Below, piece after piece: positions 1 through 55,393 of a stretch of 55,393 bases of DNA (the first letter of the stretch is position 1; every line of letters starts with the position of its first letter). The DNA is taken from NCBI GenBank assembly GCA_947459655.1, contig CANHEE010000003.1, positions 1-55,393 of the forward strand. The letters are read 5' to 3'. Made by a program: the position numbers and the translations under genes. Source of the DNA: Lewinellaceae bacterium (GTDB lineage: Bacteria; Bacteroidota; Bacteroidia; Chitinophagales; Saprospiraceae). The notes beneath the pieces were generated by a model. That model saw only the letters and a list, made by a program, of their open reading frames with translations. It was not told the DNA's origin and did no database searches.

Positions 1-427
1 AAAAACTCCTATAGGAGAAGTCTTTCTCAGAGGGCTTTTTCTTGTACCAGGACCTGGTAGCATCGGTATGCTGATTCCTAATGACTGTATCGCCATAGAT
101 AAAATCAGGCCGGATAGCATTCTCAAAGATGTTTTTCAGGGTATCGTTGCTAAAAAAAGTATCTCCAGCATGCAGGAAGCAGACGTATTCCCCTTTTGCT
201 TTTGCAACTGCCTTGTTGAGCGCATCATAAATGCCCTTGTCTCTTTCGCTGAAAACACTGAATTTTTCTGTCTGGTATTTTTCTACCAGGGCTAGAGTAC
301 CATCGGAGGATCCACCATCCTGTATCAGGTATTCATAGTCCTGAAAAGATTGGTTTGCAACACATTGCAGGGTTCTTTCGATAAATTGCTCTGCGTTGTA
401 ACAAATAGTAATGATGGTAATCAGCAC
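1..427 (-). CDS. Glycosyltransferase family 2, N-terminal part (cut by window edge)
   Basis: The minus strand encodes 142 codons, open to the left edge, so the C-terminal part lies outside the window. The start is taken as GTG at 427 because an in-frame TAA lies only one codon upstream (431-433). The product begins VLITIITICYNAEQFIERTL, the GT-A nucleotide-binding strand, followed by IQDGGSSDGT and FLHAGDTF, the usual GT2 first acidic motif and DxD-like region. GT2 enzymes transfer a sugar from a nucleotide donor to a lipid-linked acceptor on the cytoplasmic face. The gene lies downstream of gmd in the polysaccharide operon and probably acts on the same glycan. Donor and acceptor cannot be read from the sequence. 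Confidence 0.85.
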   Translation of the reverse strand, partial: MLITIITICYNAEQFIERTLQCVANQSFQDYEYLIQDGGSSDGTLALVEKYQTEKFSVFSERDKGIYDALNKAVAKAKGEYVCFLHAGDTFFSNDTLKNIFENAIRPDFIYGDTVIRNQHTDATRSWYKKKPSEKDFSYRSF

Positions 428-3709: not shown

Positions 3710-4870
3710 CTACAGCAGCAGACCGTCAAGAATGGTAGTTATACGCTCCATATCGTTCGGATGCATATTTGAACCGGATGGGAGGCAAAGTCCCTGCTCG
3801 AAGAGATGTTCAGAAATGCCATTGGTATAAGCCGGATATTGTTGAAAAATCGGCTGCAGATGCATCGGTTTCCAAAGCGGTCGTGCCTCGATGTTTACTG
3901 CGTCAAGTGCAAGTCGCAATTGCTCCCGGTCGATGCCATTTTTTGATTTTGAAGGGTCAATCAATATCGTGGTCAGCCATTGGTTGCAGACTGAGCCTGC
4001 AGGTTCGGTCAGAAATTTTACCCCAGGAGCATTTCGGTATCTTTTTTTATAGTAACGGAATATTGCCCTCCTTTTCTGCACTCTTTTTGGTAGTACCATC
4101 ATTTGTCCACAACCAATCGCAGCACATACATTACTCAGTCGGTAGTTGTAACCAATTTCAGAGTGCTGATAATGCGGTGCGGGATCACGAGCCTGCGTGG
4201 CCAAAAATCGAGCCTTTTGCGCTGATAATTCGTCAGGGCAAAGTAATGCACCACCACCCGATGTGGTGATGATTTTGTTTCCATTGAAAGAGAGTATCCC
4301 GTATCGGCCGAACGTGCCCAATGCTTTTCCTCCGAAAGAGGAGCCGAGCGCTTCGGCTGCATCTTCAATGACCGGAATCTCATATTGATCAGCAATAGCC
4401 ATTATTTTATCCATTTGGGCTGGCATTCCGTAGAGGTGAACAAGTACTATTGCTTTAGGTTTTTTTCCGGCAGAAATCCTGTCCCGGATGGCCTTTTCCA
4501 GTAGTAATGGGGACATGTTCCATGTACGCGACTCAGAGTCCACGAATACAGGTATTGCTTTTTGGTAGACAATCGGATTGCAGCTTGCGGAAAAGGTAAA
4601 ACTGGAGCAAATGACTTCGTCACCGATGTCTACACCCAATAGGATCAATGCAAGGTGCAGTGCTGCAGTACCTGAACTCAAAGCAACTGCGTGTGGCGAA
4701 CCGGTATACTCCTGTAAATCTTCTTCAAACCGATTGACGAAAGGTCCAAGTGGCGCTATCCAGTTGGTTTCGAATGCTTCTCTGACAAACTTCTGCTCCA
4801 TTTTTCCCATGTGTGGTGAAGAGAGCCAGACTTTACTCAGATTTTCGCTTGCAGAATTTTTATCCGACAT
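3710..4870 (-). CDS. pglE: DegT/DnrJ/EryC1-family sugar aminotransferase (PglE-like)
   Basis: A 386-residue PLP enzyme of the sugar aminotransferase family. The N-terminus KVWLSSPHMG and the cofactor region SSGTAALHLALI are typical of PglE-type UDP-4-amino-4,6-dideoxy-GlcNAc synthases. The PLP lysine lies in LSFNGNKIITTSGGGAL. An open frame continues upstream to an ATG at 4936, but that would overlap the preceding gene by 77 nt. ATG at 4870 gives an 11-nt overlap and the usual family N-terminus, so it is preferred. The enzyme would aminate C4 of the 4-keto sugar made by the adjacent dehydratase, using glutamate. The family is certain; the exact substrate rests on the neighbours. Confidence 0.9.
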   Translation of the reverse strand: MSDKNSASENLSKVWLSSPHMGKMEQKFVREAFETNWIAPLGPFVNRFEEDLQEYTGSPHAVALSSGTAALHLALILLGVDIGDEVICSSFTFSASCNPIVYQKAIPVFVDSESRTWNMSPLLLEKAIRDRISAGKKPKAIVLVHLYGMPAQMDKIMAIADQYEIPVIEDAAEALGSSFGGKALGTFGRYGILSFNGNKIITTSGGGALLCPDELSAQKARFLATQARDPAPHYQHSEIGYNYRLSNVCAAIGCGQMMVLPKRVQKRRAIFRYYKKRYRNAPGVKFLTEPAGSVCNQWLTTILIDPSKSKNGIDREQLRLALDAVNIEARPLWKPMHLQPIFQQYPAYTNGISEHLFEQGLCLPSGSNMHPNDMERITTILDGLLL

Positions 4871-5498
4871 GCTTAATAGGTTTTTTATTGTTTTCGCTGC
4901 CATTGAATTTTTCCATCGTAGTCTCCTGAGAGGCATTTATATTTCGCATTCCAAAAACGCGTAGAGCCGTCAGAAAAAAAATTTTCAGATCCAGAAAGAA
5001 CGACTGGTGGTCAACGTAATAGACATCCAGCGCAAATTTTTCTTCCCAGCTGATGGCATCTCTGCCGTTAATCTGTGCCCATTCTGTAATTCCGGGTTTT
5101 ACCTCATGCCTCCTTTTTTGAGCAGCACTGTACAGCGGAAGATATTCCGTCAGCAATGGCCTGGGACCGATCAGACTCATATCGCCCCTCAGCACATTGA
5201 TTAATTGTGGCAGTTCGTCAAGCGAGAGTTTTCTTACCCATCTTCCTGCTTTGTGCAAACGAACGTTATCCGGCAGCAGCAGTCCGTGTTCATCTTTTCG
5301 GTCGTCCATGGTTTTGAATTTGATCAATTTGAAAATCCTTTCATTTTCACCCGGCCTTTCCTGAAAGAAGAAGACTTTGCCATTATTTTTCATATACAAT
5401 AATACATAAACGAAGAAAATAATCGGGGTTGCGAGGATTAGGCCCAACAACGCCGCTAAAAAATCCGCAGATGGTTTGATTATTCGTTTGTAAATCAT
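4860..5498 (-). CDS. pglC: Initiating phosphoglycosyltransferase (PglC-like bacterial sugar transferase)
   Basis: A 212-residue member of the bacterial sugar transferase family in the short form without an N-terminal four-TM domain. One hydrophobic re-entrant segment (about residues 11-35) precedes FQERPGENERIFKLIKFKTM, SLDELPQLINVLRGDMSLIG and PRPLL, the conserved catalytic and phosphate-binding blocks. It transfers a sugar 1-phosphate, here probably diNAcBac-P, to undecaprenyl phosphate and so starts the repeat unit. ATG at 5498 overlaps the preceding stop as ATGA, which fixes the start against a longer open frame reaching 5663. The C-terminal 25 residues are polar and overlap pglE. Confidence 0.92.
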   Translation of the reverse strand: MIYKRIIKPSADFLAALLGLILATPIIFFVYVLLYMKNNGKVFFFQERPGENERIFKLIKFKTMDDRKDEHGLLLPDNVRLHKAGRWVRKLSLDELPQLINVLRGDMSLIGPRPLLTEYLPLYSAAQKRRHEVKPGITEWAQINGRDAISWEEKFALDVYYVDHQSFFLDLKIFFLTALRVFGMRNINASQETTMEKFNGSENNKKPIKHVG

Positions 5499-6121
5499 AA
5501 CAGTTCCCTTCCAGGGTTTCCAACTACGGTGCAGTTGTCTGCGACATCTTTCAATATGACCGCCCCCGCCCCTATAGTGACATTTTTTCCTATTTTGATA
5601 CCTTGTTTGACTACAGCATTGGCACCAATAAAACTGTTCTCGCCTACAGAAACATTGCCACAAAGTACAGAACCCGGAGCCAGATGCGCGAAATCAGCTA
5701 TAATGCATTCATGTTCAATGATTGCACCGGTATTGCAGATTACCCCGTTACCAATTGATGCAAAAGCATTTATTTTCACGCCGGTTCCTACCATTACTGA
5801 GGCACCCATAGTTGACCGGTCTGAGATGATCGCGGAGGGATCTATGGCGTTGACTGAAGAGAAGGCATTGAGTTTCCCGAATATCTCTCTACGTGTTTTA
5901 TTGTTGCCGATTGCGATGAAAAAACTGCTTTTTTCAAGAACCTCATTTGCGGCATCAGAATGGAAATCCCCGTACCAGGGGAGTCCAAAAGGATTATTTT
6001 CTTTTTCAACAGCATCGCAATAGCCTATCAGAGATGCACCTGTTCTCAATAATATATCTGCGACGACATAAGCATGGCCAGAATAACCTACCAGGATGAC
6101 TTTATTTTTTTCCAATGACAT
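5495..6121 (-). CDS. pglD: UDP-4-amino-sugar N-acetyltransferase (PglD-like, left-handed beta-helix)
   Basis: A 208-residue protein in two parts. The N-terminal Rossmann-like domain (VILVGYSGHAYVVADIL) binds the UDP-sugar. It is followed by hexapeptide repeats forming a left-handed beta-helix (roughly residues 95-205) and the end VVGNPGRELL. His137 in IIEHECI and His146 in DFAHLAPGS match the catalytic base region of PglD. The enzyme acetylates the C4 amine to give UDP-di-N-acetylbacillosamine. ATG at 6121 overlaps the upstream glycosyltransferase by 20 nt. A longer open frame to 6193 exists but adds unrelated residues. The downstream pglC overlaps by ATGA, suggesting coupled translation. Confidence 0.9.
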   Translation of the reverse strand: MSLEKNKVILVGYSGHAYVVADILLRTGASLIGYCDAVEKENNPFGLPWYGDFHSDAANEVLEKSSFFIAIGNNKTRREIFGKLNAFSSVNAIDPSAIISDRSTMGASVMVGTGVKINAFASIGNGVICNTGAIIEHECIIADFAHLAPGSVLCGNVSVGENSFIGANAVVKQGIKIGKNVTIGAGAVILKDVADNCTVVGNPGRELL

Positions 6122-7367
6122 CTGTAATAGTTGAAATGTATTTTTCCGCAAGTGCCTGTCTGTCAAAATGCACATGAGCGTAGGTATATCCATTATCGCC
6201 CATGTTTTGCAAACTTAAGGGTTGGGACAGATAGTTTTCAATAATTTTCGCAAAAAGCTGCGGATTTTCAGGCTCTACATAGACTCCGCATCGAGCATTT
6301 TCAACCAGCTCCCTAGAGACTCCGTCTATCAGCATGAAAATCGGTTTTTTACAAGACATGTAGTCAAAGGTCTTGTTGGAATACACAGTTTTGAAGGTAT
6401 CTACTTTTTTTAAGATGGATGTTCCAGCGTCTGAAGCCAGAATGTACTTGAAGACCTCTTTTTTAGGTACAGCATCAATGAATCTGACGGCGTTTCCCAC
6501 ACCCCGTTTCTCTACCTCTTTTTTCAACATAGCTTTCTCCATTCCCTCCCCTATCATGAGGAATAAAACTTCAGGATATTTGCTGTGTAAAATTTCTGCT
6601 GTCTGTACTGCCTGAATCAGATGATTGGCAACACCATGTGCACCAACATAGGTTATTACAAATCGTTTTTCCAAATCGTTTTCTCTCCGGAAAGCATCAA
6701 CATCAAATGTGTGCAGCAACTCTTCGCTTATCGCGAAATCAGCAGCGTTGGGAATCATCACGATTTTTTCTTCAGGAACCTGCTTTTCTTGAATGAGCGT
6801 ATCGCGGAATGCTGGTGTAAGTACATTAATCAGCCTTGCCTTCCGATAAATGAAAGCCTCAAAAGCATATGCCATTCGGATAATCCAACGGTTTTTCAGC
6901 ACTCCCGTATCAATGGCAGATTCCGGCCAAAGGTCTCTGATTTCAAAAACCAGCGGAGTTCGCCTTAGTAAGGACAAAATGTAGCCTGATATGCCAACAA
7001 ACAAAGGAGGAGAGGTGACAATAATCACATCAAATTTGCCTTTTGTTTTGAAAAATCCGGCGTAGAGACTTGAAAAGACAAATGAAAAATAAGCCCATAG
7101 TCTTCCTGCGAAGCTCACATTGTATGCCTCTGATACATGACTTCTGATGACTGTTAATTGCTCATCCCGCTTATCGGTGTGGACAAATTTTCCCCTGTAG
7201 CGTGCTGTCTTCCTGCCGGTATTGTAATGTACCATTCCAGCGAGAACGGTAATTTGATGCCCTTTCTCTGTCCAGAGTCTCGTCATTTCATTCCATCGTG
7301 AACCTCCCCCATCTCCATCTTCGAGGAAATACTGGTGTATGAGCAGAATGTTTAGTTTTTTATTCAA
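6102..7367 (-). CDS. Glycosyltransferase family 4 (WbuB-like)
   Basis: A 421-residue GT-B glycosyltransferase. The N-terminal acceptor domain starts ILLIHQYFLEDGDGGGSRWN and contains VTSPPLFVGISGY and FEIRDLWPESAIDTG, a signature of the WbuB/CapM-like GT4 group often found next to PglC-type transferases. The C-terminal donor domain has ITYVGAHGVANHL and the region SCKKPIFMLIDG. It probably adds the second sugar to the undecaprenyl-linked initiating residue, as these genes usually adjoin the phosphoglycosyltransferase. WbuB itself is linked to L-FucNAc transfer, but the donor here cannot be inferred safely. Confidence 0.88.
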   Translation of the reverse strand: MNKKLNILLIHQYFLEDGDGGGSRWNEMTRLWTEKGHQITVLAGMVHYNTGRKTARYRGKFVHTDKRDEQLTVIRSHVSEAYNVSFAGRLWAYFSFVFSSLYAGFFKTKGKFDVIIVTSPPLFVGISGYILSLLRRTPLVFEIRDLWPESAIDTGVLKNRWIIRMAYAFEAFIYRKARLINVLTPAFRDTLIQEKQVPEEKIVMIPNAADFAISEELLHTFDVDAFRRENDLEKRFVITYVGAHGVANHLIQAVQTAEILHSKYPEVLFLMIGEGMEKAMLKKEVEKRGVGNAVRFIDAVPKKEVFKYILASDAGTSILKKVDTFKTVYSNKTFDYMSCKKPIFMLIDGVSRELVENARCGVYVEPENPQLFAKIIENYLSQPLSLQNMGDNGYTYAHVHFDRQALAEKYISTITDVIGKK

Positions 7368-7387: not shown

Positions 7388-9301
7388 TTATTCGGCACCC
7401 ACAGTTATGGTAGTGATAATTCGGTCTTCAAGGGATGTAAAAGCCATACAAGTGCTCTCTTCCATTTTTCCGTAAAAAGCAGAGTAATAAGCCTGCTCAG
7501 TAATGCAGTTTTCTGCTGTGCTGCTGAAATTGATATTTGCAGCTACAGATTTATCGTAGTGCCAGCGCTGTGTAATGTTGTTATTACTGCTGTGTTTCAT
7601 TGTGTCTTCAATTGTCCAGACCGCTTTTCCCTTCTGTTTTTTGATGATTCGACGGTGTAAAATACCTGTCTTTATGTGTCGGAAAACCTCTGTTTCTCCC
7701 AAGAATTCAAATTCGGTTTTTTTCATGGTAATGTTTGCATGCAGTACTTTTGACCAATATAACCAAATAAATCGTGGCCCTTTAAGCATCTGGTCGTGGT
7801 CACCTAACATCACAGTGTTGTGTCCCTTGGTACCTGCAAAATAGCGAACTAGTTCAGCATCTGCGTTGTAACTGTAGCTGCCGGCATCCCTGAGCACATT
7901 TAGACCATTTACCCAGATGTCTACGTGCAAGTTATCTGCCTGAGAGGGACGATCCCGATAGCCCGCGCATTTGATAAAGGTAAATGTATTACCGTCCCTG
8001 ATAGTGTAAATACCACCTTTTCGAAATTCGCAAACCGGATTTAGCGAGAGGCTAAATCCTGGATTGAAACCAGTTGTGCTGTCAAGTCCCAGCCAGAACA
8101 GGTCCTCAGTTTGATCCATCCCAGCTTCTGGGAATAGGTTTTTGCCGGAAAAATAGTAGTATAATGCATTTAGTTGCGGACGATAATCCCTGAAATTGGC
8201 ATCGTTCCATTTGAAAAAAAGTGCGCCGTCATTCGCCCCGTAGTTGGGAAGTTCACCATTCCTGCCGGCCATACACTGGTAAAGGTAATCCAGACTTTTT
8301 GCAGCTCGGTGGTAAATCGTAGGGCTGAAATGTTCGTTGTTTAGTGCGGCAATTTGGAATCCGACCGAAAACAACTGAATCAGAACCCGGTGGTAGTTGT
8401 GCGAAAATTGCAAGAATGTCCCATCCTCATAGACCTGATAAAGGATTTCCTGTTCAAACCAGATTTTCCCTTTCTTTTTCCATATAGGCGATTCCGGAAA
8501 AGAAGGAAAAAGGATTCCGGCGATGTAAAGCATCAGGCATTCGGTAATCGCATGATTGTTGCGGACTGTGTATCGTGAAAAGTTGATATTGGAATACACA
8601 TGTCGCAACTGCCAGTAAATGTTGTGCTGTATTTTTTGAAAAAGCGTTTCGTCCAGCGCCGTTGCATTTTTATAATAATGCAAGGCAAAAATCCAGTTCA
8701 GTAGTCGCAACGATATTTCCTGGCTGCACTTGTAGTTGGGGCCCTGATTGATAGGGTTTGCAGCTATCCAGCTTTCTATCTCTGAAAATACCAGTTCACT
8801 GAGATCTTCTTCAAAATGATAATCGTATCTGATGATGTCGTGGAGATAGCTGAACCGTGATTTCTCCCAAATATACTTGATGTCACCTGCTTCGGTGGAA
8901 AGATCGCTTATTTCAGACCAGTGTCTGGAGATGTCATACTTATAGCCATTTGAGGGATTTGTCAGCCAGTCATACTCGGTTCCAATATTATATTGTGTGG
9001 AATTAAAAAACCAAATCTTACCGGAATTAAAATCCAGGAATCTCTGGCGCAGAGTATCGTTTTTTTGTTTGGGAATGCGGAGTGTCTCTTTACTTCCGAA
9101 AAAGTAATGCACATCAGCATCCTTCCAGTTTTGAAGAGTAAAAAAATGCTTCCGGGGCGGATTGACGGGAAATTGTGTCTTTAATACGCCAAGCTTTTCC
9201 TTCAGAGCGAAAAAAACACGGTAAAGAACATATTTCCACCCCATGTTCCGAAAAATCTGAAAGTAAAGATTTGCCTTTTTAAGCATCAGAGTTCTATCCA
9301 T
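7388..9301 (-). CDS. Heparinase II/III-family protein (polysaccharide lyase-like)
   Basis: A 637-residue protein with an N-terminal alpha/alpha-toroid region (about residues 30-370) and a C-terminal beta-sandwich heparinase II/III-like domain. His459 in NLHVDIWVNG, the block DAGSYSYNADAELVRYF and His494 in GHNTVMLGDHDQM match conserved features of the family. Relatives cleave uronic-acid-containing glycans by beta-elimination. No signal peptide is visible: the N-terminus is MDRTLMLKKANLYF with no hydrophobic stretch. The gene overlaps the upstream bi-domain oxidoreductase by 16 nt, so the two products probably work together. It may edit or trim the uronate-rich polymer encoded around it. Lyase activity is inferred only from the family. 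Confidence 0.88.
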   Translation of the reverse strand: MDRTLMLKKANLYFQIFRNMGWKYVLYRVFFALKEKLGVLKTQFPVNPPRKHFFTLQNWKDADVHYFFGSKETLRIPKQKNDTLRQRFLDFNSGKIWFFNSTQYNIGTEYDWLTNPSNGYKYDISRHWSEISDLSTEAGDIKYIWEKSRFSYLHDIIRYDYHFEEDLSELVFSEIESWIAANPINQGPNYKCSQEISLRLLNWIFALHYYKNATALDETLFQKIQHNIYWQLRHVYSNINFSRYTVRNNHAITECLMLYIAGILFPSFPESPIWKKKGKIWFEQEILYQVYEDGTFLQFSHNYHRVLIQLFSVGFQIAALNNEHFSPTIYHRAAKSLDYLYQCMAGRNGELPNYGANDGALFFKWNDANFRDYRPQLNALYYYFSGKNLFPEAGMDQTEDLFWLGLDSTTGFNPGFSLSLNPVCEFRKGGIYTIRDGNTFTFIKCAGYRDRPSQADNLHVDIWVNGLNVLRDAGSYSYNADAELVRYFAGTKGHNTVMLGDHDQMLKGPRFIWLYWSKVLHANITMKKTEFEFLGETEVFRHIKTGILHRRIIKKQKGKAVWTIEDTMKHSSNNNITQRWHYDKSVAANINFSSTAENCITEQAYYSAFYGKMEESTCMAFTSLEDRIITTITVGAE

Positions 9302-11403
9302 CTACCCTCTTTAAGGGACTGCACTGCCGAGATAGCTGCTTTTGAAGTGTTGATGAGTTCATCAAAGGGAATTATGGCATCGCCGCCCTTCTTCAGGCTA
9401 TTGACAAAACGGCTGAACTGTTCGAGGTGGCCTTTGTCCTGTGCACCACTTTTACCTGATTTTGAAAAACCATAATAAGTAGATTTTCTGAAATTATCGA
9501 CAACGATTGTTCGCTGCTGCGAATAAATTTCAATCCGCTCTTTGGAATACGCCTTGCTTCCATTGGAAAAATAGTTGATCACTCCTGTTGACCCATTCTT
9601 GTATTTCAGCAGAATGGAGGCATTATCTGTACCTGCTTCGGGATTGGTTCCCATGGCGTTCATCACTACACTACTTACGCTGCTGCCGGTCAGAAAAGAG
9701 ATTAGATCTATCAGATGGCAAGCCTCTCCAATAACGCGGCCGCCTCCAATTTTTATATCTTGTACCCATGAATTTGGTGGTATAAAACCCGCATTCATGG
9801 TTGCGATGATATTTATTGGAGCATCTCCGACTCCAATCTGAAGTTTTGCATCAGTAATAAAAGGCGAAAAGCGCCGGTTGAAGCCCACTGTTAGTGTCTT
9901 TTTCTGCTCAGTATACACCTTTTCTATTGCCACCAGATCATCCATTGTAAGCGCAAGCGGTTTTTCCACGAAAACATGTTTTCCACTTTTCAATGCTTCA
10001 ATACACATTTCAGCATGGGTATTGTGCCTGGTTGTAATCAGAACAGCATCAACTTCAGGGTCATTGAGGATATCCCTGTAGTTGGTAGTGGCATGGCCGA
10101 TACCATATTTTTTTGCGAGGGTTTTGGCCGATAGTCCGGATGCACTGGAAATATATTTTACCTCTGCCCGCAGTTTCTTCAATGCCGGTAAAACCGTTGC
10201 ATTGGTGAAGTTTCCGGCACCAATAATGCCTAAGACACCCTTTTGTGCACTAAATTTTCTGTTGCTGACCGGAACCGATGTGGCAGACAAGTCTACCGCG
10301 CCACTGTATTTAAGTAGCGAAGCAATGGCTCCCGAGCCCTTCATATTGCCATAAATCTGGTTGTAATCCTGGAGTTCGACAATTTCTGTAATGAGCGGCT
10401 GTACGTTTAGTCTTTTTGTGGCGATGGCCTGCAAAATGGCTTCAAAATTCCGTTTTTCTGTCCACCGAACAAAAGGTAACGGATAATCCCAGCCATTTTG
10501 TTCGTAGTTGCTGTCATATCTGCCCGGTCCGTAGCTGCAGGAGACCTGAAAAGTCAGTTCCTTTTCGTAAAATTCGCTTCTTTTCAACTCAAGTCCGGTT
10601 ACTCCCACAAGCACAATCCTACCGCGTTTGCGGCACATCCTCGCCGCCTGCGATACAATTTCGTTGCCCTGTGCGGAGGCTGCAATAATTACACCGTCCA
10701 CTCCTACTCCGCCACTTAGAGCATTTGCTAACCCCACAGGATCTGCGCCATTTGAAATATTGTAGGCCTTTATTCCCTTTGTATTTGCGAGGTCAACCTT
10801 TTTCTGGTCAACGTCAAAACCAATTACTTCGCAACCGTTGGCAACCAATAATTCGGCGGTAATCAATCCTATCAGGCCGAGACCCTGCACGACTATCCTT
10901 TCGCCGAAGGTGGGATTGAGCAGGCGTATACCCTGAAGACCTATTGATGCAATAACGGTAAAACATGCTTCGTCATATGAAACGCCCTCCGGAATACTTG
11001 CGACCAGGTTTTTCGGTACGCAGACCACCTCTGCATGTTGTCCGTTGGATACTACCCTATCGCCTACTTTGAAATCTTCAACACCTTCTCCTACGGCAAT
11101 CACCTCCCCGGCATTGCAGTAGCCTAGGGGAAGCGGCTCACCCAGTTTTCTGAAAACAGCCTCCAGTGTAGGCAGAAGACCGTCGGATTGTATCTTTTCA
11201 AACACCTGTTTCACCTTTTCGGGCTGCTGTCTGACCTTATGAAAAAGGTTGGCCTTACCAAATTCAACCAGCATTTTTTCCGTTCCAAGTGATACCAGGG
11301 AGCGGTGGGTTTTTATAAGTACCATCCCCTTCTGCACCAGAGGGACCGGAATGTCTTCCAGAATGGTTTCGCCTGTTTGAAGGTTTTGTATAAGCTGCAT
11401 CAT
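9286..11403 (-). CDS. Bi-domain oxidoreductase: MDR dehydrogenase fused to Gfo/Idh/MocA
   Basis: A 705-residue fusion. Residues 1-370 are a medium-chain dehydrogenase/reductase with the cofactor motif VQGLGLIGLITAEL and the region GYCNAGEVIAVGEGV. A classic catalytic zinc-ligand set is not obvious. Residues 390-705 are a Gfo/Idh/MocA oxidoreductase with GVLGIIGAGNFTNATVLPAL, the conserved HVFVEKPLALT and GFNRRFSP. Each half binds NAD(P). These fusions occur in polysaccharide loci beside heparinase-like genes, and that pairing is seen here (16-nt overlap). The substrate is unknown; oxidation and reduction of a sugar or uronate is inferred. A second ATG lies one codon after the first. Confidence 0.88.
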   Translation of the reverse strand: MMQLIQNLQTGETILEDIPVPLVQKGMVLIKTHRSLVSLGTEKMLVEFGKANLFHKVRQQPEKVKQVFEKIQSDGLLPTLEAVFRKLGEPLPLGYCNAGEVIAVGEGVEDFKVGDRVVSNGQHAEVVCVPKNLVASIPEGVSYDEACFTVIASIGLQGIRLLNPTFGERIVVQGLGLIGLITAELLVANGCEVIGFDVDQKKVDLANTKGIKAYNISNGADPVGLANALSGGVGVDGVIIAASAQGNEIVSQAARMCRKRGRIVLVGVTGLELKRSEFYEKELTFQVSCSYGPGRYDSNYEQNGWDYPLPFVRWTEKRNFEAILQAIATKRLNVQPLITEIVELQDYNQIYGNMKGSGAIASLLKYSGAVDLSATSVPVSNRKFSAQKGVLGIIGAGNFTNATVLPALKKLRAEVKYISSASGLSAKTLAKKYGIGHATTNYRDILNDPEVDAVLITTRHNTHAEMCIEALKSGKHVFVEKPLALTMDDLVAIEKVYTEQKKTLTVGFNRRFSPFITDAKLQIGVGDAPINIIATMNAGFIPPNSWVQDIKIGGGRVIGEACHLIDLISFLTGSSVSSVVMNAMGTNPEAGTDNASILLKYKNGSTGVINYFSNGSKAYSKERIEIYSQQRTIVVDNFRKSTYYGFSKSGKSGAQDKGHLEQFSRFVNSLKKGGDAIIPFDELINTSKAAISAVQSLKEGRWIEL

Positions 11404-11508: not shown

Positions 11509-11865
11509 TCACTGGATGCTTTTTCTTAATGAATTTATTTTGTTGGAAATCACAAAGATTTGTGTTTTTACTTTTTCTTTTTGAATCTCTGAATTGTAGT
11601 TAAGGTCTGATGCGATGTCGAGACAAGCTATTACCTCCATCAAACTTCCATATGCAATCTCACAAAATCTAATTTTTTCTTTAGAGGAAAACCTACTGCA
11701 ACCCTCTGCCAGATTCAAACAAACGGAAACTGCTGCTCTTCTGATTTGGTTGGTTAATCCGAATTTCTCGTCATTAGGGAAAGGACCAGATAATTTATAG
11801 ACAATTGAAGTCAAATTTCTGGAATCTTTGTAAACATCCAATTTTTCAAATGAGTACTGGTACAT
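11509..11865 (-). CDS. Four-helix-bundle protein (S23/IVS-type family)
   Basis: A 118-residue protein of the four-helix-bundle family first described from 23S rRNA intervening sequences and related to the Avd accessory proteins of diversity-generating retroelements. Recognisable blocks are FEKLDVYKDSRNLTSIVYKL at the start, LTNQIRRAAVSVCLNLAEG, then GSLMEVIACLDIA. No rRNA or reverse transcriptase is nearby. It sits between the epimerase and oxidoreductase genes, flanked by inward-facing octanucleotide repeats, which suggests it arrived as a small insertion. Members form pentamers and may bind nucleic acid; no role in glycan synthesis is known. Confidence 0.85.
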   Translation of the reverse strand: MYQYSFEKLDVYKDSRNLTSIVYKLSGPFPNDEKFGLTNQIRRAAVSVCLNLAEGCSRFSSKEKIRFCEIAYGSLMEVIACLDIASDLNYNSEIQKEKVKTQIFVISNKINSLRKSIQ

Positions 11866-11896: not shown

Positions 11897-11928
11897 ATAA
11901 ACATCTAAACATCTGAACATCTGAACAT
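11897..11928 (-). repeat. Octanucleotide tandem array, right arm
   Basis: On the minus strand this reads ATGTTCAG, ATGTTCAG, ATGTTTAG, ATGTTTA: four 8-nt units. They overlap the last codons and the TAG stop of the epimerase gene (ending at 11905), so the terminal residues MFRCSDV are encoded by repeat. The unit resembles the left-arm unit, and both arrays point toward the four-helix-bundle gene. Confidence 0.65.
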
Positions 11929-13008
11929 TTGGCCCAATTGACCAACTATCCTCCCCGCCGTCTGCCCATCCCACATCTCAGGAATGCTGCCTTTTTTCCA
12001 GTTGCCATCGAACAACTTTTTAAGTGCCGGCGCGATGGCAGCCGGATCGGTACCGATGAGCTCGTTGGTACCGATTGTGACCGTTTCCGGTCTCTCTGTA
12101 TTGTCTCGTAGGGTAATGCAGGGTACAGACATCACAGTCGTTTCTTCGGTGATGCCACCACTGTCAGTGATTACACATTTTGCCCGCTCAACCAGGTAAT
12201 TGAACTCGAGGTAGGACATGGGTGCCACGGTATGCAGGTTTGGTGCGCTGATTCCCAGTTCTGCAAATATTTTCGCTGTGCGCGGATGAACTGGAAAAAC
12301 AATCGGCAATCCACTAGTATTATTCGTTATTTGAGCAATTAATTCTCGCAACTTTTCCGCCTGATCAACATTAGCCGGACGGTGTAGGGTCATAACAAAA
12401 TAATGTTTTTCCTGCAGGTTCAGTTCATCCCAGATGGCCGGTCGCACGAAGCGGTGTTTATTTTTCAGAAGGGTATCAATCATGGTATTGCCGACAAAGA
12501 AAATCCGGTCTTCCGATACGCCTGTCTTTTCAAGATTTTTTCCTGCCTCCGGAGTAGTAGTGAAAAAATAGTCTGTTATGCAATCGGTCACCAGTCTGTT
12601 AATTTCCTCCGGCATACTGAGGTCATTCGATCGAATTCCGGCTTCGACATGGGCAACTTTGATGTGCATTTTTTTGGCCACAATTGCACACGCCATGGTT
12701 GAGGTCACATCTCCAACAACCAGACAAAGATCCGATGGTTTTTCCATCAGCACCTTTTCGTATCCAATCATGATGGCGGCTGTTTGTTCCGCCTGTGTTC
12801 CACCGCCTGCACCGAGATTTATATCCGGCTCAGGTATTCCCAGCTGCTCAAAAAAATCATCGCTCATGTTTTTGTCATAGTGCTGGCCGGTGTGTATTAG
12901 TCGGTACTGAATGTTTGTCCCTGATTTTCTGGCATCCTCAGTTGCAGCAATAATCGGTGCGATTTTCATGAAGTTCGGGCGGGCTCCCGCAATAATGTCA
13001 AAGAGCAT
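11905..13008 (-). CDS. wbpI: Non-hydrolysing UDP-GlcNAc 2-epimerase family (WbpI/WecB-like)
   Basis: A 367-residue GT-B-fold epimerase. Family motifs include IIAGARPNFMKIAPI at the N-terminus, VVGDVTSTMACAI (Asp), HVEAGIRS (Glu), MPEEINR (Glu), TLHRPANVD (His) and ITDSGGITEE. WecB converts UDP-GlcNAc to UDP-ManNAc. WbpI is the homologue that epimerises UDP-GlcNAc3NAcA to UDP-ManNAc3NAcA. The same operon contains the WbpA, B, D and E steps and the WbpG/HisH2/HisF2 trio, so the WbpI role is favoured, but sequence alone does not exclude WecB activity. The start overlaps the upstream gene by 11 nt. The 3-prime end runs into the octanucleotide array. Confidence 0.85.
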   Translation of the reverse strand: MLFDIIAGARPNFMKIAPIIAATEDARKSGTNIQYRLIHTGQHYDKNMSDDFFEQLGIPEPDINLGAGGGTQAEQTAAIMIGYEKVLMEKPSDLCLVVGDVTSTMACAIVAKKMHIKVAHVEAGIRSNDLSMPEEINRLVTDCITDYFFTTTPEAGKNLEKTGVSEDRIFFVGNTMIDTLLKNKHRFVRPAIWDELNLQEKHYFVMTLHRPANVDQAEKLRELIAQITNNTSGLPIVFPVHPRTAKIFAELGISAPNLHTVAPMSYLEFNYLVERAKCVITDSGGITEETTVMSVPCITLRDNTERPETVTIGTNELIGTDPAAIAPALKKLFDGNWKKGSIPEMWDGQTAGRIVGQLGQMFRCSDV

Positions 13009-13966
13009 ATTTCTGCTTCTTAAATAGTCGGTAAATCAGATAGATTTCAATTAATACAATAAGGAAAACAACAATCGAAAATGTTATGCGAATACTGTTG
13101 AAATAACTTTTGAAACAATCTTTGGGATCAAACATCATATATTTTGGCTGAATACCAAAGGTCAGCAACAACACCTGACGGATTTCTTTCGGAAGAAATG
13201 CCATTTTTTTATTGTAATAGTCCTGCGCAAAAACGTTATTCCCAAGCGTCATAGTGAGCACATCAAACTCTTCCGGATTGAAATAATTTGTTATTTCACT
13301 TGAAATGGCTTTGTGGTAGAAGGCGTGGTTTTCGTTTCCGAAAAACTCCCATTTTACAGGTTTCTTTTCCTGCATGCACCTGTAAATTCCGTTCAAACCT
13401 ATTAATTGTCCAGCCTCATCCCTTGCCATAAGGCAATACTGCGAATCAACCCAAACCCATTTCCCTTCGTTTGGATCAAAGTACTCGGCAAAAGTATGTG
13501 ACTTGTGATGGACTTCGCGGGGAAAGATTCGGTTTACGAGGCACATGGCCAAAAAAACCTGCGAATGGTCAGAACAACATCCATGTCCGTTATCCTCATG
13601 AAGCCATCTGATGTTTTTAATCAGGTCATCGCTGTATAGTCCGCAACCCTCACCCCCGTTTTTTGAATAAGACAGAACAATTTTCTGCACCCGCTTGTAA
13701 AAGGGAACAGTATCTGCAAATTTAAATGCCTCTATCTGGTTCTGACTAAAAAAATCGCTCAGGTACTTTTGTTTGTAGCAGATGAACGGGACACCAGCAG
13801 ACTGCATTTCGTCCGGTTCCAACGAGAAAACTTCGTTGCTTTCTGTAATTTGGGTGAAAAAAGCAAATCTGGTATCGATTTTAAGCTGATCCGGCATCAG
13901 GTAAAAACCAATGAGTATTAATAGATTGAAAAGGAAAAAAATAAGGTATTTACGCATGTGATTCAT
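12998..13966 (-). CDS. Membrane-anchored transglutaminase-like protein
   Basis: A 322-residue protein with one membrane segment near each end (about residues 6-24 and 293-314) and a central domain that would be periplasmic. Within it, Cys130/Cys131 in NGHGCCSDHSQ, His157 in HHKSHTFAEYFD and Asp174 in WVWVDSQY have the spacing and order of the Cys-His-Asp triad of the transglutaminase-like superfamily. Such folds act as cysteine proteases, amidases or acyl-transfer enzymes. It is fused by overlaps into the asparagine-synthetase and epimerase genes (17 and 11 nt), so it belongs to the glycan operon. The substrate is unknown. An ATG three codons downstream (13957) could be the true start. Confidence 0.72.
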   Translation of the reverse strand: MNHMRKYLIFFLFNLLILIGFYLMPDQLKIDTRFAFFTQITESNEVFSLEPDEMQSAGVPFICYKQKYLSDFFSQNQIEAFKFADTVPFYKRVQKIVLSYSKNGGEGCGLYSDDLIKNIRWLHEDNGHGCCSDHSQVFLAMCLVNRIFPREVHHKSHTFAEYFDPNEGKWVWVDSQYCLMARDEAGQLIGLNGIYRCMQEKKPVKWEFFGNENHAFYHKAISSEITNYFNPEEFDVLTMTLGNNVFAQDYYNKKMAFLPKEIRQVLLLTFGIQPKYMMFDPKDCFKSYFNSIRITFSIVVFLIVLIEIYLIYRLFKKQKYAL

Positions 13967-15848
13967 CTGAAAATTGCCTCATCCATGACTCAATGGCCAG
14001 AATACACCAGATTGGATAAGAGGCATCTATTTTACCTTCCTTGTTTTCGGTAATAAGTTTTTTTAGGTTTTCGTGATCAAAAATACCTCGCTTTGCAACG
14101 CTTACTTCAGAAAGGTAAGAATCAATAATTGGAGACAATCCATCCGTGACCCATTCTCTGACCGGTGCGCCAAATCCAGCCTTGGGTCTGTAAATGACTT
14201 CATGTGGAAGGTAGCGTTCCATAACTTTTTTCAACAGGTATTTTGTCGTCTTTCCTTTCATTTTCATGTGGGGCGGAATCTTCGTACTGAATTCCACCAG
14301 TTCCTTGTCTAAAAACGGGACACGCACTTCAACTCCCGCAGCCATACTTAGTTTATCAGTATAATTGAGGTTGTGGTCGCAGAGAAAATACTTCATTTCC
14401 CAGTAAAGCATCTGGTTCAGTTCACTTTTTTCATATGGAATATTATCCAGACTATCGATCAGGTACTGAGCGGGGTCAAATTTTTCAATTTTATTCCTGA
14501 CTGACGCAGCAAACAGATTTATGTTTACTGAAAGCGGTAGCCAACTGAAATATCCCGCCATCCTGTGCAGCTTTGGCTTATCGATGTCCCGGAGCAATTT
14601 TCTTATTCTCCGCACCAGAGGCCGCTTGACATCCAAAGGTTTAGTGGCGGCTTTAGCCAGGTAGGTTGCAAAAGGTGGAATGAATCTGAAATATTTTTCC
14701 AGGTAAAGTGCCTGATGTCTCCTGTAACCTGAAAAAAGGTCATCACCTGCTGTTCCACCCAAAAGCACAATATCTCCATTTTTTCTCGCTTCTCTGCATA
14801 TGTTCAATACATTCAGGGGCGCAGCATCGGCCTGTGGCTCATCCAAATGGTAAATCATTTTATCAAAATCACCAATAATGTCAATGTCTGCTTTAACAAC
14901 ATGAAGTTCAGTATCGAGATGCTTTGCCACGAGCTTTGCATAGTGCAAATCGCTGGAAAAACCATCGCTGCTTTCTCCCTCTCCAGTGTCGATGGTATAG
15001 CAGGATAGTCTTTTTTCCGGCATAATTTTCCTTGCCATCGCGACAATCGCACTGGAATCGAGTCCACCGGAAAGAAAAAAGCCCACAGGTACATCAGAAA
15101 GCAGTTGCCGTTTAACTGCTTTGTAAAGCAAGTGGTCAAGTTCTTCAATGAGATCTTCCTCACTTTTTTCCGAGTAAATTCCGTTGAGCGGAATTTCATA
15201 GTACCGGGAAGTACTCAATTTCTCCGGCGATTTGACGTTTAGGCTGATAAAATGTCCGGGCAGAAGTTTTTTTACCTTTATAAAAGGAGTCTTTTCTCCG
15301 GGAGACCATAAGAAATTGATGTAGTTTACCAGAGCCTCGTAGTCAATGCTGCGCTCTGCTTCGGGTGCTTTCAGGATTGCCTTCATTTCAGAAGCAAATA
15401 GAAAAACACCTTCATTATGGTAGTAATACAATGGTTTGACACCAAACTGATCACGTACGACCAGCAAGTCGCCGCTTATGGTATCGTAAAAAGCAAATGC
15501 GAAGATCCCGTTGAGCATGTCCAGCAATGCTGTTCCGAATTCTACCAGACCATAAAGAACAGTCTCTGTATCGCCGGTTGACCTAAAATGGTATTTGTGC
15601 TCAAATTTTGCCCTTACCTCGCGATGATTGTATATCTCGCCATTGAAAACAATGCAGTAACGACCATCCTCAGTGAACATGGGCTGATGTCCATTGGGAC
15701 TCAGGTCCTGTATCGACAGTCTCCTATGACCAAGCCCGAGATAATCATCCTGATAACTGCCGGAATCATCCGGACCCCGGTGGCTCATTGTGTTTGTTAG
15801 TTCAGCGATGTTCTTTTCGGTGCCTATGGCCCCTACTATTCCGCACAT
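13950..15848 (-). CDS. Asparagine-synthetase-like glutamine amidotransferase (AsnB family), copy 1
   Basis: A 632-residue protein with an N-terminal class II glutaminase domain. Cys2 in MCGIVGAIG becomes the nucleophile, which fixes the start, and FNGEIYNH follows. The C-terminal ATP-pyrophosphatase synthetase domain has GFFLSGGLDSSAIVA near residues 250-264. AsnB makes asparagine, but paralogues inside polysaccharide loci are thought to amidate sugar carboxylates or otherwise modify glycans (WbpS is one named in Pseudomonas O-antigen loci). The overlap with the transglutaminase-like gene and the uronic-acid genes around it support a glycan role here. This is inferred, not shown. Confidence 0.9.
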   Translation of the reverse strand: MCGIVGAIGTEKNIAELTNTMSHRGPDDSGSYQDDYLGLGHRRLSIQDLSPNGHQPMFTEDGRYCIVFNGEIYNHREVRAKFEHKYHFRSTGDTETVLYGLVEFGTALLDMLNGIFAFAFYDTISGDLLVVRDQFGVKPLYYYHNEGVFLFASEMKAILKAPEAERSIDYEALVNYINFLWSPGEKTPFIKVKKLLPGHFISLNVKSPEKLSTSRYYEIPLNGIYSEKSEEDLIEELDHLLYKAVKRQLLSDVPVGFFLSGGLDSSAIVAMARKIMPEKRLSCYTIDTGEGESSDGFSSDLHYAKLVAKHLDTELHVVKADIDIIGDFDKMIYHLDEPQADAAPLNVLNICREARKNGDIVLLGGTAGDDLFSGYRRHQALYLEKYFRFIPPFATYLAKAATKPLDVKRPLVRRIRKLLRDIDKPKLHRMAGYFSWLPLSVNINLFAASVRNKIEKFDPAQYLIDSLDNIPYEKSELNQMLYWEMKYFLCDHNLNYTDKLSMAAGVEVRVPFLDKELVEFSTKIPPHMKMKGKTTKYLLKKVMERYLPHEVIYRPKAGFGAPVREWVTDGLSPIIDSYLSEVSVAKRGIFDHENLKKLITENKEGKIDASYPIWCILAIESWMRQFSDESHA

Positions 15849-31326: not shown

Positions 31327-32667
31327 TTATTTGACAGTTTTTCTTCCGATTGAATTGTAGTAAAAACCTTCAGATTCCATCACATGCAAATCGTAGAGGT
31401 TTCTACCATCAAATATGACCGGTTGACGAAGCAGTTTTCTAAGTACGTCAAAACCCGGAGTGCGGAATACATTCCACTCAGTGGCGATAATCAGAGCATC
31501 GGCATCCACCAGAACCTCATACTGATCCTGGAAATAATCAATCTTAGTACCCAGCAAGGTCCTAACATTTTCAACTGCTTCTGGATCAAAAGCCCTTATT
31601 TTTGCGCCAGCTTCCAGAAGCTCCTCAATGATCGTCAAGGCCGGTGCCTCTCTGATATCGTCAGTATTGGGTTTAAACGCCAGTCCCCACAGTGCAAAAG
31701 TTTTTCCCTTCAGGTCTCCTCTAAAGAACTCGTATACCTTTTGGTATATTCTGCTTTTTTGTTTCTCATTGACTTTCATAACAGATTTCAGAATCTGGAA
31801 TTCGTAGCCGTGCTCCTCGGCAGTTTTGGCCAGCGCCTGAACATCTTTTGGGAAACATGAACCACCGTAACCGATTCCGGGGAACAAAAACCGCTTTCCG
31901 ATGCGGTTGTCGCTGCCCATCCCAATTCTGACTTTGTCCACGTCTGCACCCATGGCTTCACAGAGGTTGGCAATTTCATTCATGAAAGAAATTCTGGTAG
32001 CCAGATAAGAATTTGCGGCATATTTTGTCATTTCCGCTGAGCGCTCATCCATAATGTATATAGGATTTCCCTGTCTCACAAAGGGTTCGTACAGTTGTTT
32101 CATTTTATTGGCCGCACGCTCTGAACTTGTGCCTATCACTACGCGGTCGGGCTTCATAAAGTCCTCAACGGCAACCCCCTCGCGCAAGAATTCTGGGTTG
32201 GAGACGACATCAAACAGGCCCTCAGCAGCATCCTCCGGAGTAAATCTCTTGTCAAGTTCAGTTCTAATTGCAGAAGTAACCATTTCGGAGGTACCCACCG
32301 GCACGGTGCTTTTATCGACAATAACTGTATATGAGTGAATGAGCTTTCCCAAGTCCTTCGCCACACCCAATATGTAACTGAGATCTGCAGACCCGTCTTC
32401 GCCTGGGGGAGTTGGCAATGCGAGAAAAATAATCTCAGCAATGTCTACCGCCTCTCTGAGTTCAGTCGTGAAATGCAATCTCCCTTGTTTGGTATTTCGC
32501 TGAAAGAGGAGCTCGAGTCCCGGCTCATAGATGGGAACCACTCCTTTTTTTAGCATTTCTACTTTTTTCTGATCAATGTCTACACAAAGGACATTGTTGC
32601 CTGTTTCTGCAAAACAGGTACCTGTCACCAATCCGACATAACCTGTTCCAATAACTGCTATATTCAT
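31327..32667 (-). CDS. ugd: UDP-glucose 6-dehydrogenase
   Basis: A 446-residue enzyme. The N-terminal Rossmann fold carries NIAVIGTGYVGLVTGTCFAE, LALPTPPGEDGSADL is in the middle, and GYGGSCFPKDV holds the catalytic cysteine. It oxidises UDP-glucose to UDP-glucuronate in two NAD-dependent steps. The product can feed the UXS-like protein at 26245-27189. Its ATG is fixed by the usual N-terminus. It is separated from the upstream UpxY-like gene by a 223-nt untranslated stretch with several inverted repeats. Confidence 0.95.
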   Translation of the reverse strand: MNIAVIGTGYVGLVTGTCFAETGNNVLCVDIDQKKVEMLKKGVVPIYEPGLELLFQRNTKQGRLHFTTELREAVDIAEIIFLALPTPPGEDGSADLSYILGVAKDLGKLIHSYTVIVDKSTVPVGTSEMVTSAIRTELDKRFTPEDAAEGLFDVVSNPEFLREGVAVEDFMKPDRVVIGTSSERAANKMKQLYEPFVRQGNPIYIMDERSAEMTKYAANSYLATRISFMNEIANLCEAMGADVDKVRIGMGSDNRIGKRFLFPGIGYGGSCFPKDVQALAKTAEEHGYEFQILKSVMKVNEKQKSRIYQKVYEFFRGDLKGKTFALWGLAFKPNTDDIREAPALTIIEELLEAGAKIRAFDPEAVENVRTLLGTKIDYFQDQYEVLVDADALIIATEWNVFRTPGFDVLRKLLRQPVIFDGRNLYDLHVMESEGFYYNSIGRKTVK

Positions 32668-32890: not shown

Positions 32891-33397
32891 TTAAACTTTA
32901 ATCAGCTGCTGTTTATCAATGCTGATCTGGAGATGGAAACCTAGGTGACCAAGTTCTACCAGGACCCTGTTTTTACCATCTATTTCCACCATTTTTCCTC
33001 TAATCCCGGCCAGATTTCCCAGCACAATTTCAACCTCATCACCTGCATAAAAAGTATATTTTTCTACAGCAACATCTACATCCTCTCCCACAATTCGCCT
33101 CATCAGATTAAATTCCTCATCGGGTATGGGGAATATATCTTTTGCAAAACGCACAAAACCAACCACGTACTCCGTTTCCAGTACTTTTACATAATCTTCC
33201 CTTGTGATGTAGACAAAAACATAGCAACTAATGAGGGGCAACTCTGTCATTAACCTCTTGGCACCATGCAATCGGTATCTTTTCTGTAACGGCAAGTAGC
33301 ACTCAATGTGCTTTTGCCTGAGCAGCCGGACGACTACTTTTTCAGATTTAAAACGCGTATGCACAGCATACCATCGTGGTGTTGTCTCGTCAATCAA
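32891..33397 (-). CDS. upxY: NusG-like transcription antiterminator (UpxY family)
   Basis: A 168-residue NusG paralogue. The NGN domain covers about residues 6-110 (RWYAVHTRFKSEKVVVRLL, then ISCYVFVYI). A C-terminal KOW domain at about 118-165 contains FYAGDEVEIVLGNLAGIRGK. In Bacteroides, UpxY proteins are encoded in capsular loci and let RNA polymerase read through terminators in the leader of their own locus. Here the gene is the fourth of the operon, with a 30-nt gap from wbpA and a structured 223-nt gap downstream. A locus-specific antitermination role is inferred from the family and position. Confidence 0.9.
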   Translation of the reverse strand: MIDETTPRWYAVHTRFKSEKVVVRLLRQKHIECYLPLQKRYRLHGAKRLMTELPLISCYVFVYITREDYVKVLETEYVVGFVRFAKDIFPIPDEEFNLMRRIVGEDVDVAVEKYTFYAGDEVEIVLGNLAGIRGKMVEIDGKNRVLVELGHLGFHLQISIDKQQLIKV

Positions 33398-33427: not shown

Positions 33428-34720
33428 CTATAGTCTCCAGTAGGTCAGTTCCTTTTCAAACGTCTTTTTGTCAAAAGTGCCTTTCACGTCAATAAGTACC
33501 GGATCGGTGTTCATCATTGCCTTAAAATCCGTCACATTCATGTGCTTAAAATCTTTGTGTGCAACTGCCACCACAACGGCATCATAACTGCCTGCTGCAT
33601 CCTTCGCCAGAGAAATCTGGTATTCATGCATAACCGCATCTGTATCTGCATAGGGATCAAGAACATCAACCTGCACAGAATAACCCTCAATTTCATGTAT
33701 CAGGTCAACTACCTTGGAATTGCGGATATCAGAAACATCTTCCTTAAAAGTAATGCCCATCACTAGCACCCTGGTGTCTTTCGGATTTTTACCGCCTGAA
33801 ATCAGTGTCTGCACCAGTTTTTTGGCAATCCAGGCAGGCATTTGATCATTAATACGTCTACCTGAGCGAATCACCTGCGGGTCATGCCCAAGCTCAATGG
33901 CCTTGTGCATAAGGTAGTACGGATCTACCCCAATACAATGTCCACCCACCAGTCCGGGATACAATTTCACAAAATTCCACTTGGTCCCAGCTGCTTCGAT
34001 CACCTCCCTGGTATCAATTCCTGCCTTATCAAAAATCATCGACAATTCATTCATCAGGGAAATATTGATATCACGCTGGGTATTTTCAATAACTTTTGCC
34101 GCCTCGGCCACTTTAATAGAACTGGCGCGGTAAACTCCTGCCTCAATGATATGCCCGTAAACAGCTGCAATCTCTGCACTTGCCTCTTCATCAGACCCGG
34201 AAACAATCTTCAGAATTTTGGTAAGTGTTCTCACCTTGTCACCCGGAACAATTCGCTCAGGAGAATAGCCAAGTTTGAAATCGCCAAGCGAAAGACCGCT
34301 TTCCTGCTCAATTACGGGCAAACAGTCCTCCTCTGTGCAGCCAGGGTATACTGTTGACTCAAATACCACATAATCACCTTTTTTCAGACCATATGCCACG
34401 CTTTTTGATGCGTTAAGCAGCGGACGTAGATTAGGCACTTTGTGTTCATCAATATCAGTGAGAACTGAAACGATGAAAGAGTGGGCCTTTTTTAAGTCCT
34501 CCCTGTCAGAAGAAAAAAGGATGTCGGTATTTTCAAATGCTGATTTGTCAATCTCATTGGATGGATCAATATGCCTTCGCATCATTTCTATCCGACCGGC
34601 ATTGATGTCGTATCCAATTACACTAAAATGCTTGGCAAATTCAAGCGCTATCGGCAAACCCACGTATCCGAGTCCGATAACTGCAATTTTCTTTTCCTTT
34701 TTTATTAGTTCCTGATACAT
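33428..34720 (-). CDS. wbpA: UDP-N-acetylhexosamine 6-dehydrogenase (WbpA/WbpO/TviB type)
   Basis: A 430-residue nucleotide-sugar dehydrogenase. The N-terminus IAVIGLGYVGLPIALEFAKH, the block LGYSPERIVPGDK and GGHCIGVDPYYLMHKA, with the catalytic cysteine, match the TviB/WbpO group rather than the Ugd group. It oxidises C6 of UDP-GlcNAc or UDP-GalNAc in two NAD-dependent steps. With wbpB, wbpD and wbpE in the same operon, the likely product is UDP-GlcNAcA as substrate for WbpB. TviB/WbpO-like enzymes prefer different UDP-N-acetylhexosamines, so substrate identity is not settled. Confidence 0.88.
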   Translation of the reverse strand: MYQELIKKEKKIAVIGLGYVGLPIALEFAKHFSVIGYDINAGRIEMMRRHIDPSNEIDKSAFENTDILFSSDREDLKKAHSFIVSVLTDIDEHKVPNLRPLLNASKSVAYGLKKGDYVVFESTVYPGCTEEDCLPVIEQESGLSLGDFKLGYSPERIVPGDKVRTLTKILKIVSGSDEEASAEIAAVYGHIIEAGVYRASSIKVAEAAKVIENTQRDINISLMNELSMIFDKAGIDTREVIEAAGTKWNFVKLYPGLVGGHCIGVDPYYLMHKAIELGHDPQVIRSGRRINDQMPAWIAKKLVQTLISGGKNPKDTRVLVMGITFKEDVSDIRNSKVVDLIHEIEGYSVQVDVLDPYADTDAVMHEYQISLAKDAAGSYDAVVVAVAHKDFKHMNVTDFKAMMNTDPVLIDVKGTFDKKTFEKELTYWRL

Positions 34721-55170: not shown

Positions 55171-55185
55171 TTTACAAAAAAGATA

Positions 55186-55393
55186 TGTGAAATCTGATAT
55201 AGTTTGTGTGTGATATTTGGTATAGATATCAAAAATCACAAGCACACAAAACACATAATGACACCAAAGATAACATTTATCACATACAAATTCCCGTTTA
55301 TATAAAGATTTGTATGTGAAATACGTTATAAGAGCGCGTGAATTTAGTTATAAATAGTTGTGATATTTGGTATACTCAAGAGTGAAATATGTT
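55186..55393 (+). repeat. Iteron array and operator-like dyad upstream of rep (origin candidate)
   Basis: Copies of the 16-bp consensus TGTGAWATNNGNTATA occur in direct orientation at 55186, 55209, 55315, 55337 (two mismatches), 55359 and 55381 (cut by the edge, last 3 nt missing). Inverted copies with two mismatches each lie at 55225-55240 and 55269-55284. Those at 55315, 55337, 55359 and 55381 are exactly 22 nt apart. The copies at 55209 and 55225 abut in opposite orientation, forming a 32-bp imperfect palindrome like a Rep operator. This arrangement matches an iteron-type origin and rep autoregulation. The array continues past the window end. Confidence 0.8.
55265..55272 (-). promoter_or_regulatory. 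-7 box candidate of rep, overlapping an iteron
   Basis: The minus strand reads TATCTTTG, an exact TAnnTTTG match, about 95 nt from the rep start codon. It overlaps the inverted iteron at 55269-55284, so Rep binding there would block its own promoter. The nearest TTTG upstream (55287-55290, minus strand) is only 14 nt away, which is shorter than usual. Confidence 0.4.

Follow-up and report, generated by a model that had tools for sequence, protein, structure and literature searches.

A divergent transglutaminase-fold membrane protein encoded in a Wzy-type polysaccharide locus of a Lewinellaceae bacterium

Proteins of the transglutaminase fold have a documented link to surface polysaccharide, in the role of a regulator (PMC4241560). 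In Caulobacter crescentus the transglutaminase homologue HvyA, which carries a Sec signal, is a product of the capsule export locus; it keeps the cell from becoming capsulated, and for this it depends on Cys192, His226 and Asp241 (PMC4241560). A sequence-only reading of the DNA considered here, which knew of no standard polysaccharide step for such an enzyme, missed this precedent, although HvyA is described as a regulator (PMC4241560). The open-access literature searched yielded papers on HvyA and LapG-type proteins, and among the entries listed none that looked like a transglutaminase-like enzyme acting on a surface glycan. LapG is a BTLCP periplasmic protease that cleaves a large adhesin. 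The BTLCP family of LapG and HvyA is taken here to be Pfam PF06035. Among other enzymes, the eukaryotic PNGase acts on a sugar amide, and GdmF-type amide synthases and arylamine N-acetyltransferases carry out triad thiol acyltransferase chemistry, presumably with acyl donors that differ from the present case.

The protein analysed here (P1) is encoded by an ATG-initiated open reading frame of 322 codons in the window, by which is meant the whole stretch of 55,393 nucleotides (Table 1). Like HvyA, it is a homologue of transglutaminases whose gene sits in a polysaccharide locus, with a catalytic triad and a probable periplasmic location; HvyA differs in having a Sec signal without any segment for retention in the membrane, in belonging to BTLCP, a family with no listed match for P1, and in being a negative regulator (PMC4241560). 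The P1 gene lies within a long run of polysaccharide genes on the minus strand, which comprises Wzx-, Wzy- and Wzz-like genes (Wzy and Wzz scoring slightly below their Pfam cut-offs) together with genes for glycosyltransferases, sugar-nucleotide enzymes and initiating transferases, and it was the sole match in its own genome both in a protein search and in a search with the family alignment. The open reading frame coordinates bear out the overlaps of 17 nt with the AsnB gene and 11 nt with the epimerase (WecB) gene that had been noted previously; from an alternative in-frame ATG at 13957, three codons in, the AsnB overlap would be only 8 nt. Taken alone these overlaps say little, because 12 of the 27 consecutive pairs among the 28 genes listed for the run also overlap, the three longest overlaps depending on the start chosen. 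Consecutive frames at 3710–7367(-), for example, overlap by 77, 169 and 92 nt, and the downstream gene of each overlapping pair there probably starts further in. The run also holds a Heparinase II/III-like protein (7388–9301(-)) inside the biosynthetic operon, with a 16-nt overlap with the bi-domain oxidoreductase, a 23S rRNA intervening-sequence-type protein (11509–11865(-)) between that oxidoreductase and WecB, and, in its upstream part, an UpxY-type antiterminator scoring above cut-off (32891–33397(-)).

Table 1. Positions in the window of P1, its sequence elements and its neighbours
Feature	Position	Strand	Basis
Transglutaminase-like membrane protein, 322 aa (P1, P0001)	12998..13966	-	ORF; family profile 2.6e-16; Pfam Transglut_core E 0.18, below cut-off
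Transglutaminase-like core, about residues 104–208	13343..13657	-	Conserved block, 16 members; model pLDDT
Cys131 codon, predicted nucleophile	13574..13576	-	16/16
His157 codon	13496..13498	-	16/16
Asp174 codon	13445..13447	-	16/16
N-terminal hydrophobic (transmembrane) segment, residues 7–25	13892..13948	-	Hydropathy 2.17
C-terminal hydrophobic (transmembrane) segment, residues 294–312	13031..13087	-	Hydropathy 2.58
AsnB-type glutamine-dependent amidotransferase, WbpS-like candidate	13950..15848	-	GATase_7 + Asn_synthase; TIGR01536
WecB-type UDP-GlcNAc 2-epimerase, WbpI-like candidate	11905..13008	-	TIGR00236 above cut-off
Bi-domain oxidoreductase, same operon	9286..11403	-	Counterpart in the G397 locus, 65% identity

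P1 is a very divergent transglutaminase-fold protein. The Pfam family Transglut_core (PF01841), the only transglutaminase-type family listed for it, matches residues 118–174 below threshold (12.5 bits against a cut-off of 23). P1 shares with that family the order and spacing of the triad, the secondary structure of the core and the rows returned by fold searches, and differs from it in scoring below the curated cut-off and in lacking, before the catalytic histidine, about 10 residues that its own homologues have. A search with P1 alone in 395 genomes of the phylum gave one relative besides P1 itself, 30 per cent identical over the core. Alignment searches gave six loci in the named genome collection, five of them encoding family members, and, in the 219 genomes of the first relative's family, 19 matching genomes, 10 of which (11 loci) matched strongly, at E 7e-56 or better; five weak matches (E 0.0025–0.0082) and nine from the 219-genome search (E 4e-10 to 1e-6) are not counted as members. 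The family thus delimited holds 15 flavobacterial homologues of 262–300 aa that are 17–23 per cent identical to P1 over aligned residues, L172 and L147, which agree in length and genes, being taken as the same Snuella contig and counted once. Left out of the resulting count of 16, P1 included, are the proteins of G397 (36 bits on the A7 profile) and G629 (45 bits), and an Auribacterota protein (L149) that is one of the six named-collection loci. Among viral contigs and plasmids no relative was confirmed.

The assignment of P1 to this family can be judged from a profile made from the other 15 members alone, which recovers P1 over residues 69–289 (Z 3000) ahead of the next transglutaminase-like protein in that search (1.5e-11), while none of 200 shuffled copies of P1 reached E 1 on the same profile. 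With E 1 as the limit, Transglut_core is matched by every one of the seven aligned members (best 1.3e-7). Two homologues were also scored individually against its 23-bit cut-off, and L146 lies above it at 27 bits and L148 below it at 21.4. In the tree P1 groups with the family weakly (bootstrap 66, SH-aLRT 94), on a very long branch (2.68). All 16 members keep Cys131, His157 and Asp174 as well as S132, D133, Q136, C142, N145, E151, E161 and W170, and their Cys-His-Asp order aligns with that of generic bacterial Transglut_core members. The triad had been proposed in the sequence-only reading as periplasmic Cys130/131, His157 and Asp174, with its conservation among homologues named as a check; Cys131, His157 and Asp174 withstand that comparison, Cys130 is specific to P1 (V or T in the other 15 members), and the periplasmic placement is probable, as argued below. 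Since Cys130 is not conserved, Cys131 is the likely nucleophile.

Structural evidence is consistent with this assignment. An AlphaFold model built from seven sequences had a mean pLDDT of 54.7, with ten-residue blocks averaging 53–87 across residues 131–230 and values below 50, and so unreliable, in residues 24–129; an earlier model from two sequences (pLDDT 43.1) was kept out of the fold search. The order of strands and helices around the triad in the model is that of the transglutaminase superfamily. The best PDB rows from Foldseek were Rad4 and a Cytophaga cysteine protease (3isr), with a best E of 3.2e-3 and none below 0.001, and further down the list, starting at rank 19 (E 0.12 or above), deubiquitinases, menin and a proteasome chain also appear. 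VIA-align placed PNGase (9–13 per cent identity in those rows), factor XIII, TG2/TG3 and LapG among its best rows, with Z at most 6.1 (25 chains at Z 5 or above, none at 8). Further rows were Rad4, vasohibins, two microtubule-doublet chains and, at Z 4.5–4.6 and with no sequence match listed, arylamine N-acetyltransferases and GdmF. A PDB sequence search with P1 alone found nothing, and with the alignment as query it gave one marginal match, again 3isr, at E 0.012. Structure prediction, which had been suggested as a way to expose a different fold, returned best rows that are transglutaminase-like, from a weak model. Although Z values below 8 alone are no proof, the transglutaminase fold class of P1 is regarded here as secure when the model is taken together with the sequence evidence.

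The genomic positions of the homologues tie the family to surface polysaccharide, a tie that is real at the family level. Nine of the 15 homologues are encoded in polysaccharide loci (G118, Snuella (G861), Mangrovimonas, G867, G750, G802, G740, G812 and G744), and the eight of these loci with a genus label represent eight genera. They share a gene order of glycosyltransferases, homologue, Wzy, GT4 and then, where the stretch extends, a WcaJ-type transferase; the homologue stands just before Wzy in eight of the nine and just after it in Snuella. In G750 four open reading frames separate GT4 from the homologue (L174 10413–14266); one is FemAB-like, one is methyltransferase-like, and of the other two one encodes an unassigned protein of 534 aa. 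The other six homologues (three in Flavobacterium, two in G849 and one in G848) have neighbours that were not recognised as belonging to polysaccharide synthesis. Five genomes carry these six copies, and in four of the five a Wzy homologue, 43–48 per cent identical, is encoded elsewhere. When Wzy was used as bait, a match was found in 74 of 130 family genomes. Among the best 30 of these 74, surveyed for about 1.5 kb on each side, a transglutaminase-like gene stood beside Wzy in all six loci at a Wzy identity of at least 60 per cent (G118 included) and in none of the 24 loci at 46–57 per cent. It follows that the gene belongs, as an accessory, to one version of the locus; the G867 and Mangrovimonas loci (Wzy 63 per cent) fit the split, and Snuella (57 per cent, gene present) breaks it. 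Such a correlation would be expected of a tailoring enzyme for one repeat unit, and would equally be expected from vertical descent of the locus, with which it is confounded. In the window's own family, none of 20 further transglutaminase-like regions, some of them very short (3.6 kb), was polysaccharide-like by BLAST against the window's polysaccharide genes.

The membrane attachment of P1 is less widely shared. The two end-anchors claimed from the sequence are borne out by hydropathy peaks close to either terminus (Table 1). Positive charges flank both helices, with R5 and K6 (+2) before the first and R, K, K and K (+4) after the second, and on the strength of these charges both ends would lie inside and the catalytic domain in the periplasm. 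None of the 15 homologues has an N-terminal hydrophobic segment, their maxima there not exceeding 0.98. Towards the C terminus several of them do have a hydrophobic stretch (up to 1.92), and six aligned homologues end before the position of the C-terminal segment of P1. The homologues may therefore be cytoplasmic and may act on substrates other than that of P1; if they are, location is not conserved across the family and a shared substrate becomes less certain. Two transglutaminase-like proteins of 450 and 459 aa (L016 and L017), both of them hydrophobic at either end, had looked similar to P1 in layout but are encoded outside polysaccharide loci and branch elsewhere.

There is reason to think that P1 is an active thiol enzyme, anchored in the inner membrane and facing the periplasm, that tailors the glycan made by this locus, and this is the leading account, held tentatively and at less than even confidence. 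Under it a helix at each end would hold P1 in the inner membrane with the catalytic domain on the predicted periplasmic side, and Cys131, activated by His157 and Asp174, would be acylated by a carboxamide, a peptide-type amide or an ester, the resulting thioester then handing the acyl group on to an amine or to water. Substituents joined by an amide or ester bond could in this way be formed, exchanged or removed, either on the lipid-linked repeat or on the new polymer. Computation shows the gene, its fold class, the conservation of the triad and the recurrence of the family in Wzy-type loci, whereas the periplasmic side, the catalytic activity, the substrate and the reaction are inferred. In favour of tailoring, the triad and eight flanking invariant residues are kept at an identity of 17–23 per cent, and a homologue recurs beside Wzy; against it stand the six homologues outside polysaccharide loci, the absence from the homologues of the two anchors of P1, the weak model and the long P1 branch.

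Tailoring is slightly favoured over processing of a protein. A periplasmic protease or deamidase resembling HvyA or LapG could act on an assembly, export or surface protein and so control how much polysaccharide is made or kept, a possibility that is on the unlikely side and still the first to be weighed. It draws on the triad-dependent block of capsulation by a capsule-locus homologue, HvyA (PMC4241560), on the LapG chains among the VIA-align rows, and on the apparently periplasmic domain of P1. However, BTLCP is listed neither for P1 (E up to 10) nor for the seven aligned members (E up to 1), in a search whose filters may hide weak matches; the flavobacterial homologues, moreover, have no N-terminal signal-like segment.

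The gene might instead encode a peptidase or stress enzyme that hitchhikes in the locus and has nothing to do with the glycan. The six homologues found elsewhere and the 20 own-family regions without polysaccharide-like genes would both be expected of such a passenger, but its retention beside Wzy in at least eight genera would not, and this explanation is considered improbable.

A more specific chemistry is suggested by the sugar pathway of the window. Deletion work in Porphyromonas gingivalis showed that the uronamide of its T9SS linking sugar is the product of WbpS (PGN_1234), an AsnB-like protein (PMC7468200). The window encodes a TviB/WbpA-like dehydrogenase (33428–34720) and a UDP-glucose-dehydrogenase-like protein (31327–32667), Gfo/Idh, DegT and hexapeptide acetyltransferase candidates, and WecB, WbuX, HisF2-type acetamidino and HisH-type proteins, Wbp roles being assigned here from family and not from a model match; the genome holds 94 T9SS tail matches above cut-off. 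Because of the WbpS precedent, these candidate Wbp-type genes and the T9SS tails, a uronamide is likely in the polymer of the window. A uronamide is a carboxamide that a transglutaminase could use, so the earlier idea that P1 forms or breaks an amide on the glycan survives as a minority reading, and amide formation or cleavage on a uronate by P1 would be chemically reasonable. The AsnB protein itself combines GATase_7 and Asn_synthase domains, starts with MCGIVG and so has an intact N-terminal Cys2, and scores 450 bits on TIGR01536 (above the cut-off of 267) and 456 bits on TIGR03108 (below the cut-off of 817). A second AsnB-type gene at 44839–46731(-), 378.8 bits against the asparagine synthase cut-off of 267.1, lies away from the polysaccharide run and is perhaps a housekeeping copy.

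AsnB and P1 might form a coupled pair, in which AsnB would make a uronate carboxamide that mimics glutamine and P1 would exchange it with an amine such as an amino acid, a peptide or a protein lysine. In favour of this, AsnB lies directly upstream of P1 and overlaps it, and there are the WbpS precedent (PMC7468200) and the candidate Wbp-type genes. Yet no AsnB match (1e-5) was found in the nine flavobacterial polysaccharide loci with a homologue, in stretches of 14.5–20.3 kb. Conversely, of 60 genomes searched for AsnB, 39 gave a match, the window's own included; of 20 AsnB regions of relatives, one each from 20 of these genomes and including some short contigs (8.6–20 kb), 19 had no transglutaminase-like gene. 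The exception, G397, has the AsnB closest to that of the window (57–58 per cent) and an oxidoreductase 65 per cent identical to the window's; its transglutaminase-like protein has an N-terminal hydrophobic anchor and belongs to a different branch of the tree from P1, and a near relative in G629 is encoded outside a recognised polysaccharide locus. In G428 (L136 9013–12098), away from any clear polysaccharide locus, the gene directly after an AsnB gene overlaps it and encodes a transglutaminase-like protein whose start is lipoprotein-like, but this product reaches only E 0.46 on the P1-family profile. These two or three cases are a hint. As a family trait, coupling to AsnB was rejected on the nine homologue loci and the 20 AsnB loci covered, and the description of P1 as coupled to an amidotransferase is not supported as a general feature; for the window alone a coupled pair is very unlikely. 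Its furthest extension, in which P1 would swap the glutamine-like carboxamide in the periplasm with an amine of a surface protein, possibly a lysine or the amino terminus, is a longer shot still. If true, a glycan transamidase would be a second route, besides the sortase-like T9SS, by which proteins are bound to surface polysaccharide.

The remaining alternatives fare worse against the sequence evidence. Rad4 chains are among the top Foldseek rows and the P1 branch is long, as might be seen in a catalytically dead scaffold with a transglutaminase fold of the Rad4 kind, but the triad and its flanking residues are fully kept, which makes a dead scaffold highly improbable. AsnB-like and transglutaminase-like folds co-occur in lasso peptide operons as a cyclase and a leader peptidase, but a lasso-type pair is barely conceivable here and was rejected: with 243 bits the AsnB protein falls well short of the lasso cyclase cut-off (525), whereas its 450 bits on the asparagine synthase model exceed the cut-off there (267), Transglut_core is the only transglutaminase-type family listed for P1, and the neighbours are sugar genes.

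Transglutaminase-fold proteins appear to have entered polysaccharide loci more than once, as P1, as the flavobacterial family in at least eight genera, as the G397 branch and as HvyA, and the conserved syntenic flavobacterial set makes the tailoring role preferred here for P1 testable. Beyond the polysaccharide run, the window encodes a 1707-aa protein (48496–53619(+)) that combines a peptidase domain of the C25 (gingipain) type with a match to a T9SS tail (53290–53532). Replication initiators of the Rep3 type are usual on plasmids, and one of 507 aa lies at the window's end (53731–55254(-)).
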